A stretch of DNA of 64,000 nt from Brachyspira murdochii DSM 12563 (GTDB taxonomy: Bacteria; Spirochaetota; Brachyspiria; Brachyspirales; Brachyspiraceae), in assembly GCF_000092845.1 (NCBI RefSeq), contig NC_014150.1:930001-994000 (forward strand), given 5' to 3'. The notes beneath the pieces are model-generated. The model was not told the origin of the DNA, made no database searches, and saw only the letters and a list, made by a program, of their open reading frames with translations. Position numbers and translations under genes: made by a program. Every line of letters starts with the position of its first letter. The first letter of the stretch is position 1. Positions 43,042 through 50,687 of the stretch are shown piece after piece.

Positions 43042-44913
43042 TTAGTTATTTGTTTGAGCTGCTTCTGTATCAGTAGCTGTGTTAGCTTCTTCTGTAGCAG
43101 TATTGTTTTGCTGCTGATTTCTCAATATCATAGCTTCATCATAAGTAATATATTCCATATTAGGATCATAAGTACCAGATCTTTCTTCTCCATTCATACT
43201 AGGTATAGTTAAAACTTGTCCCGGAAGTATTAAATCTGGGTTATTAGGATCTCTTAATATATTTCTATTAGCTTGGTATAATCTATACCATTGTATAGGG
43301 TCATTATATATGAAAGAGTATCCAGCTATTCTCCATAAAGCATCAGTTAAAGGAGTTCTTTGTACAACTGTATAATACATAGGAAGTACAGTAACTTTAC
43401 CTTCAGTATTAACAGTTTGACCAGTAGTTGCATCGATTATCTGACCTCTTTCACCATCGCCGTCTCCTTCTACTAAATCGCCGTCAACAGGTCTTTTTGG
43501 TCCCATTTCATATATAGCGTTCATAGAATTATTAGCTTCTTCAAGTTTTTGTCTTGCTAAAGTATTATCATTATTAGCTAATGCATCTTCAGCATCCTTA
43601 ATAACTTGGGAAAGATTTTGATCTTCTTCGCTATCTGGTATTATATAACCTTGATCAACAAGCTCTTGATATCTTGCTTTAATTTCATCTAACTGTCTTT
43701 GATTTTCTTCTCTTGCTATAGTATTATCACGTTCATTAATTAAATCGTCCATAGCTTTAGAAGCTTCTAATGCTTTTTCACTTGCAGCAGCAGGATCAGT
43801 TTCAACAATATTATTAGCATCAGCTAAAAGAGCAGATATATTTTGATCAACTTCATTTCCTCTGGTTATAGTATTGTCATTAACAAGACTGTCGTATTTT
43901 TCTTGAGCATTGGCAATATCTTGCTTAGCCTTAGCAATTGCATCTGCCTGTTCTTTAGCAAGTGCTTCCTGTTCTGCTTTTTGTCTAGCTTCTTCTTCAG
44001 CTTTTTTCTTAGCTTCAGCTTCTGCCTTAGCTTTTGCTTCAGCCTCTGCTTTTGCCTTAGCCTCAGCAGCAGCTTTTGCTTTAGCTTCTTCAGCTTTTCT
44101 CTTAGCTTCAGCTTCTGCCTTAGCTTTTGCTTCAGCAGCAGCTTTTGCTTTGGCCTCTGCTTCTGCTTTTGCTTTAGCAGCAGCGGCAGCTCTTTCAGCA
44201 GCAGCTTTAGCATCTGCTTCTGCTTTAGTTATTCCAGCAAGAGCAGCAGCAACATTTTGCTGTACGCTTGCAAAATTATCAGATTTTAAAGCCTCATCAG
44301 CTTGAGCCAAAGCACCAGATACAGTTTTATCATTATTATCACCTGCTTTTATACTTTTACCCAAAGCAGCATTATATTTAGCTCTTGCATCGGCTATAGT
44401 TTTTGAAGCAGTATCTCTTTCTCTGCCTAAATAACCTTCTTTAACAGTATTAGCTGATGATAAAGCATTGCTGTAAGAGTTTAAAACAGTTGTAAAAGTA
44501 TTTGAAGCAGCGATAAACTCTTCATCAGTTTGAGCAGTAGCATCAGGAGCTGGAATGCTTCCTACGCTGGCATTTCCTTCTTCAAAATATTTAACAGCTT
44601 CTTCATAAGTTGTCTTGAATTGATTATCACTAGAAGCACCCATTTGATTTATTTCAGTAATAGCTTTATCAGCATCACTTCTAGTTTTACTTATTCTAAC
44701 ATTCATAAGTCTGTAGAATAATGCCATAGTAGCTTTATCTATACTAACAGAAGCCTCCTGAGATTTATCATAAGACTGCTGATATTGTCCTTCATTTTGA
44801 AGTGTGTCAGCCTCTTCTGTAATTCTTGCAGCATCTTCATAAGTTTGTGCTGGCAAAACTGACCATGTAAAAGATAATAAAGCTATAGTAGCTATTATTT
44901 TTTTTATTCTCAT
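43042..44913 (-). CDS. Exported alanine-rich coiled-coil protein with C-terminal LysM
   Basis: 623 residues from the second of two adjacent ATGs (AAGGAG six bases upstream). A signal peptide ends around PAQTYEDA (about residue 25). A helical N-terminal part is followed by an Ala/Lys/Glu coiled coil of KAEAEAKAKAA type (about 235-320, coded at roughly 43,950-44,220) and a Gly/Asp linker. A LysM peptidoglycan-binding domain (about 515-590; YYTVVQRTPLTDALWRIAGY, LILPGQVLTIP) ends the chain. It is likely periplasmic and bound to peptidoglycan. It is 17 bases downstream of a lipoprotein gene in the same operon. Confidence 0.85.
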   Translation of the reverse strand: MRIKKIIATIALLSFTWSVLPAQTYEDAARITEEADTLQNEGQYQQSYDKSQEASVSIDKATMALFYRLMNVRISKTRSDADKAITEINQMGASSDNQFKTTYEEAVKYFEEGNASVGSIPAPDATAQTDEEFIAASNTFTTVLNSYSNALSSANTVKEGYLGRERDTASKTIADARAKYNAALGKSIKAGDNNDKTVSGALAQADEALKSDNFASVQQNVAAALAGITKAEADAKAAAERAAAAAKAKAEAEAKAKAAAEAKAKAEAEAKRKAEEAKAKAAAEAKAKAEAEAKAKAEAEAKKKAEEEARQKAEQEALAKEQADAIAKAKQDIANAQEKYDSLVNDNTITRGNEVDQNISALLADANNIVETDPAAASEKALEASKAMDDLINERDNTIAREENQRQLDEIKARYQELVDQGYIIPDSEEDQNLSQVIKDAEDALANNDNTLARQKLEEANNSMNAIYEMGPKRPVDGDLVEGDGDGERGQIIDATTGQTVNTEGKVTVLPMYYTVVQRTPLTDALWRIAGYSFIYNDPIQWYRLYQANRNILRDPNNPDLILPGQVLTIPSMNGEERSGTYDPNMEYITYDEAMILRNQQQNNTATEEANTATDTEAAQTNN

Positions 44914-44930
44914 CATTTACTCCTTATATA

Positions 44931-48026: not shown

Positions 48027-49778
48027 ATGAACGTAGATATAGGTAAATTCGCTGGTTTCTGTGATGGTGTAAAATATGCAGTTGAAAATACTTTTTCTCA
48101 GGCTGCTAAAAATAATAATAACGATGATATATATATTGACGGACATTTAATACATAATCCTCAGACTCTTGATATGTTGGAAAATATAGGCGTAAAAACA
48201 TATGAAGATAATGAGGATATGTCTGTTTTAAATAATAAAACTGTTATAGTAAGAGCTCATGGAATATCTCCTAAAAGACGTGAAGCTCTGTCTAGCCATG
48301 CTAAAAAAATAGTTAATCTTACCTGTAAATATGTTGCTAAAATTCAAGGTCTTGTTAAAAAACATAGCTCTCTTGGTTATAGAATTATAGTAATAGGAAA
48401 TCCTAAACACCCGGAAATAATTGGAGTATGCGGATATGCCAATGATGTCTATGTTGTTTACAAAGACGAAGATTTAAATAATTTACCTAATGATACAAAA
48501 AAAACTCTAATAGCAGCTCAGACAACATTACAAAAGTCAGTATTTGATAAATATGTAGATAAAATAAAAGAAAAATATCCTGATACAGAAATTATAGTAA
48601 AAAATACTATATGCGAAGCTACAGAACAAAGACAAAATGAAGTATTAGAAATAGCTAAAAGAAATGATGCCGTACTTGTTATAGGAGGATCTGAAAGCTC
48701 AAATACTAGAAATCTATATAATATAGCATCATCCATAAAGCCAGCATTTTATGTTGAATATAAAGAAGATTTAGAAAAAATAGATTTATCAAAATATAAA
48801 AATGTAGGCATAATGGCTGGAGCTTCCACCCCGGACTGGCTTATAGAAGATGTGGCTCAGACAATCAAAGATAAATATGCAAGTCCTATTACAAGATTTG
48901 TTTCTAGAATATTTGATTTTCTTAATTACGGATATATATTTTTCTCTGTAGGTGCTTTTTTAATGTCATATGCTATATATGATATATTATCAGAGCCTTT
49001 TCAGTATAAAATAGGTATAGTAATAGCTGCTTATTATCTGTATATGAGTTTGGGAAATGGGTACAGCAATTATACTATTAAAATAAGCGACAAAAGAAGA
49101 TATTTATTCTATCAAAAAAATAAATTATTTTTTATGACACTTATAACTGTAAGTGCATTATCTATGTTTTATTTGGCATACAAAGTAGATATCGGAATAC
49201 TAATGCTTACAATACTTTCAAGCCTTCTTGGCATAGGCTATAATATAAGTTTTGAAAATAAATCGAGATTTGAAACTTCGGTATTTTTTAAGCTATTTAA
49301 AAAACTTATACCATTTAAAGCTATAGTAATATCAGTTGCTGTTACAGTGCTTTTGAACGGATCTATATTTATAATGCATAGAAATATTATAAAAGAAAAG
49401 CCTTTCCTATATATATTTTCTACAAGCATAGTATTTTTATTTATGTTTATAAGGCAGGCATTGATAGAAATAAAATTCTCTCAAAGTGATAAGATAGCAG
49501 GTGCTGTAACTTTAACTACATATATAGATTCATCTAAATTAGCAGTGATAACTAGAATAATACCGATTGTACTAATATTATTTATGATTGTTAGTATTCT
49601 TATAGGAAAGTTTCCATTGGAGCTAAATAAATTAAAATACTTTATACCAATTATATACAGCAGTGTTGTATCTTTTGCTGTAATGAAAAAGAAGATTATA
49701 ACAAGCAGACATCTATTTTCTATACTAATAGATTCTCCGCTTTATGTATTATTTTTAGCGGCATTAATCAACATTTAA
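48027..49778 (+). CDS. ispH: IspH (HMBPP reductase) fused to a UbiA-like membrane domain
   Basis: 583 residues, almost twice the usual IspH length. Residues 1-285 are a complete IspH, which makes IPP and DMAPP from HMBPP in the non-mevalonate pathway: cluster cysteines C12, C100 and C196, substrate histidines H43 and H78, H128-P-E130, Q165-T-T and the SESSN loop near 225. Residues about 290-583 have eight or nine membrane helices and resemble UbiA prenyltransferases, with a loop near 347 (SNYTIKISDKRR) and one near 475 (RQALIEIKFSQSDKIAG) where the two Asp-rich motifs should be. Most of their aspartates are replaced, so that half may be inactive or altered. Co-transcribed with rpmB. Confidence 0.88.
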   Translation: MNVDIGKFAGFCDGVKYAVENTFSQAAKNNNNDDIYIDGHLIHNPQTLDMLENIGVKTYEDNEDMSVLNNKTVIVRAHGISPKRREALSSHAKKIVNLTCKYVAKIQGLVKKHSSLGYRIIVIGNPKHPEIIGVCGYANDVYVVYKDEDLNNLPNDTKKTLIAAQTTLQKSVFDKYVDKIKEKYPDTEIIVKNTICEATEQRQNEVLEIAKRNDAVLVIGGSESSNTRNLYNIASSIKPAFYVEYKEDLEKIDLSKYKNVGIMAGASTPDWLIEDVAQTIKDKYASPITRFVSRIFDFLNYGYIFFSVGAFLMSYAIYDILSEPFQYKIGIVIAAYYLYMSLGNGYSNYTIKISDKRRYLFYQKNKLFFMTLITVSALSMFYLAYKVDIGILMLTILSSLLGIGYNISFENKSRFETSVFFKLFKKLIPFKAIVISVAVTVLLNGSIFIMHRNIIKEKPFLYIFSTSIVFLFMFIRQALIEIKFSQSDKIAGAVTLTTYIDSSKLAVITRIIPIVLILFMIVSILIGKFPLELNKLKYFIPIIYSSVVSFAVMKKKIITSRHLFSILIDSPLYVLFLAALINI

Positions 49779-49865: not shown

Positions 49866-50687
49866 TTAATTCTTTTTTAAGAAAAGTGAAGAAGATGATG
49901 AACCAGCTAAATGATGTCTTCTCAAATCTATAAGTTCAAATATAGTAGCAGAAGATAAACTCTCTCTTAAAGCTTTAGGTGATTTAAGAAGTTTAATAAT
50001 CTCTTCATTAACCATCCACTCCTCATCATAAACATTGCTTATAGAATCTCTAGGAGCATATATCATATTACTTCTGGCAAGCACTATGAATCTATTATTT
50101 TCATCATAATATCCTAATTCTCCAATAAAATAAGCATGAGGCATAGCTAAATTAACGTATCTGTCTCCATATATATAGTTAACTTCTATTTCTTTGTGTA
50201 TCTCTCCATTAGTAATATCATATCCGAATACATGGAATATTCTTACAGATATTCTCTTGTCTTTTAAAGAATGATAAGCTATATCGCTGTCAGATATATC
50301 CCAATAAAAGAAACACCATTCTGGGTCACGCATCATAAGAACTAATTTTGTTTCATTATATCTGTCCGGAAGCTCTCTAACGATATCAACTTCATCAGGT
50401 ATATACTCTTCTTTTTTTTCTTCTTCTTTCTCTAAAACTTCTAACTCTTCATCTTCTTTAACTTTTTTCTTTGAAACTGATTTTTTAGATGATGAAGTTT
50501 TTTTACTGCCGGCACTTAAAGCTGTTTTTTTAGTAGATGCAGATTTAACTGCGGCTTTTTTAGCAGAAACTGATGTTTTTTCTTCTTTATCTTCATCAGT
50601 TTTTTTAGCATTTACAGTTTTTTTAGCAGCAGCTGCTTTCTTTTTAGCGGTATCTTCAGCTGCTTTTTCTGTTTTTTTTGTAGCCAT
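49866..50687 (-). CDS. DUF4912 protein with a lysine-rich tail
   Basis: 273 residues. The first 100 are Lys/Ala/Ser-rich, histone H1-like repeats (TKKTA, KKSVSKKKVK) ending in an acidic patch. The rest is a DUF4912 domain with the LVLMMRDPEWCFFYWDIS signature and RISVRIFHVFGYDI. The basic tail could bind nucleic acid or act as a linker. DUF4912 proteins are common in spirochaetes but their role is not known to me. GGAG lies before the ATG. Confidence 0.85.
   Translation of the reverse strand: MATKKTEKAAEDTAKKKAAAAKKTVNAKKTDEDKEEKTSVSAKKAAVKSASTKKTALSAGSKKTSSSKKSVSKKKVKEDEELEVLEKEEEKKEEYIPDEVDIVRELPDRYNETKLVLMMRDPEWCFFYWDISDSDIAYHSLKDKRISVRIFHVFGYDITNGEIHKEIEVNYIYGDRYVNLAMPHAYFIGELGYYDENNRFIVLARSNMIYAPRDSISNVYDEEWMVNEEIIKLLKSPKALRESLSSATIFELIDLRRHHLAGSSSSSLFLKKN

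Follow-up and report, generated by a model that had tools for sequence, protein, structure and literature searches.

IspH is the [4Fe-4S] HMBPP reductase that carries out the last step of the MEP pathway, delivering the isoprenoid precursors IPP and DMAPP. Rao et al. (2015) reported 47 'Rosetta stone' proteins in which this enzyme is joined to a UbiA domain; all came from sulfate reducers, and their UbiA part was classed as PT_UbiA_5 (PMC4746011). The UbiA part of these proteins contains two DxxxD repeats, and the fusion was proposed to localise IspH to the membrane and to supply IPP/DMAPP locally, while expression of the full-length protein failed (PMC4746011). Anaerobes also harbour IspH-RPS1 fusions (NF000907; Rao et al., 2015; PMC4746011), in which the C-terminal partner is ribosomal protein S1. 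Three motifs, NDxxDxxxD, DxxxD and YxxxK, define the UbiA enzymes (PMC6461227, PMC7839719). No study of IspH-UbiA fusions later than that of Rao et al. (2015) was found in a search that covered few subscription papers.

The gene considered here is located in a window of 64,000 nucleotides of the Brachyspira murdochii DSM 12563 genome and encodes a protein with the same partners in the same domain order as the fusions of the sulfate reducers, both groups being anaerobes (PMC4746011). The window protein has a UbiA-like domain at the C-terminus of IspH and lacks the two DxxxD repeats: compared with the published description of the sulfate reducer proteins, the Asp residues of motif 1 are lost and motif 2 is reduced in the spirochaetes. 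The IspH-RPS1 model NF000907 matches only the IspH part of the window protein, far below its cut-off, and the partner here is a membrane domain instead of a ribosomal protein. The preliminary description of the locus missed that the IspH-UbiA fusion, together with the proposal of membrane localisation and IPP/DMAPP supply, is already published (PMC4746011). What is new is the distribution of the fusion in spirochaetes, the counted loss of motifs, the evidence for selection and the natural loss of the membrane domain in one genome (G026). The published range of the fusion thereby grows beyond the sulfate reducers to include an entire genus of gut spirochaetes, together with ten more families of their phylum.

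The fusion gene (48027-49778, + strand) is an uninterrupted frame of 583 codons without internal stops, and is composed of an IspH (LytB, HMBPP reductase) domain spanning amino acids 1-285 (48027-48881, +) and a UbiA-family membrane domain with about nine predicted helices spanning amino acids 286-583 (48882-49775, +). It is directly preceded by rpmB, which encodes ribosomal protein L28 (47811-48002, +; Pfam Ribosomal_L28, 3.8e-19), and a convergent DUF4912 gene lies outside the feature (49869-50687, -; Pfam, 2.9e-26). The IspH half matches the LYTB/IspH family of Pfam (PF02401) at residues 7-281 with an E-value of 4e-80 and, over the full domain, TIGR00216 with 258.9 bits against a cut-off of 187.85. 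Cys12, His43, His78, Cys100, His128, Glu130, Thr167, Cys196, Ser224, Asn226 and Ser267, among them the three cluster cysteines (C12, C100 and C196) and the HMBPP-binding residues, are present in the window protein and invariant in 24 fused homologues; their catalytic roles are presumed from E. coli numbering. The IspH half of the full-length structural model also resembles solved IspH structures (Foldseek, 1.2e-23), in agreement with the earlier view that residues 1-285 form an IspH with its key residues intact.

Hydrophobic and largely helical, the C-terminal half has a relation to UbiA, proposed beforehand for a membrane part of about 290 residues, that emerges from alignment of the family while being invisible from the window sequence alone. 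Taken by itself, this half of the window protein (about 295-298 residues) matches no Pfam or NCBIfam family. A sub-threshold match to TraP (E about 0.01) and a light-harvesting peptide, the sole match of the near-clade profile against PDB sequences (E=0.23), were both taken as chance. Relatives of the window protein do match the UbiA family PF01040. In the nearer, Brachyspira-side clade 7 of 12 members do so (best 4.7e-6); in a second clade of spirochaetes it is 12 of 14, the best of which (1e-9) scores 38.5 bits and is the one relative to exceed the cut-off of 34.2. A search with the fused-domain profile moreover finds a standalone spirochaete protein (L138, genome G073), the closest unfused relative of the membrane domain found, which is a clear UbiA protein (PF01040, 80.4 bits, 1.6e-22) and whose two motifs still contain acidic residues (NRFTDIRED, FDIRDVIGD). 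In hhalign comparisons the fused family aligns with this protein end to end over 273 columns (98.4%, E=7.6e-15), with the Asp motifs falling in register. Compared with canonical spirochaete UbiA proteins, the near clade alone yields 2.6% (E=0.018) and both clades together 67% (E=5e-5); it is thus because of the standalone bridge that the homology becomes decisive. At the locus of the bridging protein (L138:214-2999), the standalone UbiA gene, a second, partial UbiA-like ORF and a gene for a geranylgeranyl-reductase-like flavoprotein are all adjacent. AlphaFold models of the membrane half alone and of the full-length protein, built from shallow alignments, have pLDDT values mostly below 50 in the membrane half and provided no usable fold; the best PDB match of the low-confidence membrane-half model was ApUbiA (4od4), end to end and non-significant (E=3.1).

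With the UbiA prenyltransferases (PF01040; ApUbiA 4OD4/4OD5, MenA and UbiA) the Brachyspira domain shares, besides homology and a predicted number of about nine helices, the position and context of the motifs, the Gly after motif 2 and the Tyr of YxxxK, whereas NDxxDxxxD and DxxxD are not conserved and IspH is fused to it. Motif counts were taken from an alignment of 24 diverse fused members. Motif 1 of the window protein (amino acids 344-352; 49056-49082, +) reads N344-G-Y-S-N348-Y-T-I-K352, so that NGYSNYTIK stands in place of NDxxDxxxD. Its Asn is present in 24/24 members and the first Asp in none, while the position of the second Asp holds Asp in one member, Glu in 9 and Asn in 11; ten second-clade members have Asp or Glu there, and in Brachyspira the motif contains no acidic residue. 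Motif 2 (amino acids 481-492, EIKFSQSDKIAG; 49467-49502, +), which reads E481-I-K-F484-S-Q486-S-D488-K-I-A-G492, is partly kept. Its middle Asp, the first of DxxxD, is absent from all 24 members and replaced by F484 in the window, and its last Asp, D488, is invariant (24/24). All members have Asp or Glu at position 481, seven residues upstream of D488, and 22/24 have Gln at position 486. The third motif, YxxxK, is represented by the invariant Tyr405 (49239-49241, +; 24/24); the window has YNISF, with no Lys at +4, and the Lys is out of register. In this phylum-wide alignment N344, R476 and a basic residue at position 431 (K/R) are likewise found in 24/24 members.

In these alignments, just one of the four canonical Asp ligands is left in the Brachyspira domain, and the loss is graded across the family, since two fused proteins of family f31 (L135 and L137) retain the middle Asp of motif 2, the second clade mostly retains an acid in motif 1, and Brachyspira has no acid left in motif 1. 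The preliminary description had placed the altered Asp loops near residues 347 and 475 with mostly Asn, Lys, Glu or Ser in them; the alteration itself is borne out, while the second loop is in fact located at 481-492 and still carries the acids E481 and D488. Two known cases of non-canonical motifs offer a comparison. Chlorophyll synthase (9SAU/9SAS), a member of the UbiA family, has a motif 2 of the form D-x6-D-x3-G in which the middle Asp is absent and which aligns with the fused family, a weak match (E=0.83) in which the likeness covers motif 2. In heteromeric prenyl diphosphate synthases, the small subunits are non-catalytic homologues of a prenyl enzyme that have lost DDxxD/DxxxD and act as partners (PMC7839719); they resemble the Brachyspira domain by analogy, in the loss of motifs, but are soluble, belong to another family and are not fused to IspH.

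The fusion is by no means confined to this assembly, a possibility that had been considered beforehand. An open frame of about 580 amino acids is found in 26/26 Brachyspira genomes (records L027-L039 include B. innocens, B. hampsonii, B. alvinipulli and B. catarrhinii), which rules out an assembly artefact or a chance ORF. Among the 393 Spirochaetota genomes searched, the domain profile matches 71, and 68 of them, in 11 families, have the fusion. This last number, counted from the listed open frames, leaves aside the standalone proteins in G073, G230 and G329 and includes three cut or broken frames (G139, G194 and G218); the sequence was read for about 50 of the 68 fusions and the remainder were counted by frame length. 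On a tree of the IspH domain, some deep forks of which are weak, the rows with a fusion group together (3 label changes, compared with 17.2 when labels are shuffled), which falls short of proving a strict single origin. One unfused genome, G026, sits within the fused Brachyspiraceae on this tree, and its IspH stands alone, ending just past the linker with the convergent DUF4912 gene abutting the shortened ispH. Its position inside the fused rows and the end of ispH after the linker therefore indicate a secondary, clean loss of the tail, and this close relative constitutes a natural control. Outside these genomes, a 544-amino acid fusion of IspH and a membrane domain, flanked by radC- and tadA-like genes (identified by eye), was found in two contigs filed as viral (L129:1049-2683 and L132; IMG/VR UViG_3300032018_000387 and UViG_3300033233_001942), which are probably host DNA. 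The membrane part of L129 has no Pfam match and was aligned only via the fusion; its motif 2 shows the same pattern, E-x4-Q-T-D, as the spirochaete fusions. A tblastn search of plasmids found no match.

Pairwise comparison of 24 Brachyspira genes (simple Nei-Gojobori counts, pairs with dS below 1.5) gives a median dN/dS of 0.083 in IspH and of 0.116 in the UbiA part, with a median dN of 0.10 and 0.17, respectively. The membrane half evolves faster than IspH and is nevertheless under purifying selection, and the dN/dS of about 0.12 rules out recent pseudogenisation. A fused UbiA part can thus lose the catalytic metal site while under purifying selection. This weakens the simple view that the fusion feeds substrate to a prenyltransferase, and suggests that the UbiA fold has a role other than an enzymatic one.

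The reading that we favour, with a little more confidence than doubt, is that an active IspH is held at the membrane by a UbiA-fold module that binds a lipid or a partner protein without canonical catalysis. In this model, which is built on sequence comparison, a domain that descended from a Mg-dependent prenyltransferase, and in which diphosphate-ionising prenyl transfer is most likely gone, would covalently tether an intact [4Fe-4S] HMBPP reductase to the cytoplasmic side of the membrane. Because most Asp ligands are lost, canonical Mg/diphosphate catalysis seems unlikely in Brachyspira. N344, Y405, K431, R476, Q486, D488 and D569 may form a conserved polar pocket, so binding of a ligand, be it a membrane isoprenoid or a partner protein, is probably retained, and the domain could serve as a scaffold by which IspH, and with it the release of IPP/DMAPP, is positioned at the membrane. 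The preliminary description had offered channelling of the product to the membrane or a pure anchor as possible roles. Against tethering or scaffolding counts G026, in which the tail is evidently dispensable. This same genome, which lost the tail cleanly and kept IspH, is what one would expect if the domain were only a hydrophobic anchor, the relic of an old bifunctional enzyme and of little importance in its sequence, and the eroded catalytic motifs and higher dN of the membrane half agree with such a relic. We regard this as unlikely, because the invariant polar residues, situated at the old active site, and the dN/dS of about 0.12 argue against an anchor indifferent to sequence, and the pattern of conservation seems to fit a retained pocket better; moreover, the domain of about 295 residues has been retained in 11 families although one helix would suffice.

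The loss of Asp ligands is, as far as the comparison with relatives goes, no proof of inactivity. The domain might instead still transfer prenyl groups in a remodelled active site, where the acidic pair and the polar residues that remain would serve another donor or acceptor while IspH supplies the precursors locally, as in the Rosetta-stone proposal, which Rao et al. (2015) favour for the sulfate reducers (PMC4746011). The ubiquitous D488 and the acid at position 481 are compatible with this idea, as are chlorophyll synthase, which works with a motif 2 that likewise lacks the middle Asp, the ten second-clade members that are acidic at the second Asp position of motif 1, and the middle Asp of motif 2 in the f31 proteins. 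It is a possibility to which we give limited weight, however, as the Asp motifs with Mg2+ define UbiA catalysis (PMC7839719, PMC6461227) and the Brachyspira motif 1 is devoid of acids. In addition, no UbiA/MenA-type quinone enzyme was detected in the B. murdochii genome, which has zero PF01040 matches above or below the cut-off; elsewhere in the Brachyspiraceae such matches are weak only and below the cut-off. A regulatory role is suggested by human UBIAD1, a UbiA protein reported to bind and stabilise HMG-CoA reductase, which belongs to the other isoprenoid pathway (PMC4374513, PMC9314443). By this analogy, on which the idea rests, the domain could sense isoprenoids and regulate the reductase to which it is attached, and the Brachyspira protein does join a non-canonical UbiA domain with conserved polar residues to the terminal MEP-pathway reductase; given also the loss of the tail in G026, we deem it very unlikely. 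A broader version of the analogy, in which a catalytically silent UbiA-fold domain would serve as membrane sensor or scaffold of IspH, bind a polyprenyl lipid and feed back on IspH, and would thus represent a bacterial counterpart of UBIAD1/HMG-CoA reductase widespread in spirochaetes, is speculative and quite improbable.

The genes surrounding the fusion differ between the clades. The order rpmB followed by the fusion gene is found in Brachyspira and in a related genus (L042), in which an L28-like ORF lies upstream of ispH. The second spirochaete clade has the fusion gene at the end of a series of type II secretion genes (K, PilM-like/L and M), right after an unassigned membrane gene at the N position, which it overlaps by a few bases in some cases. 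This run together with the fusion occurs at L085, L086 (349-6398), L088, L089, L091, L092, L095 and L097, and second-clade fusion loci are often near or facing pdxJ, YbbR and a diadenylate cyclase gene. No isoprenoid genes were seen among the neighbours of the fusion gene at the loci examined. In G028, an RnfB-like ORF (named by eye; L041:1630-2436) is located near the fusion gene; as a membrane source of reduced ferredoxin it may be relevant to IspH, and its link with the fusion is possibly due to chance. Elsewhere in the window, an Ala/Lys/Glu-rich repeat (43843-44305) lies inside an ORF of 624 amino acids (43042-44916, -) and is accompanied by spurious long overlapping ORFs in other frames.
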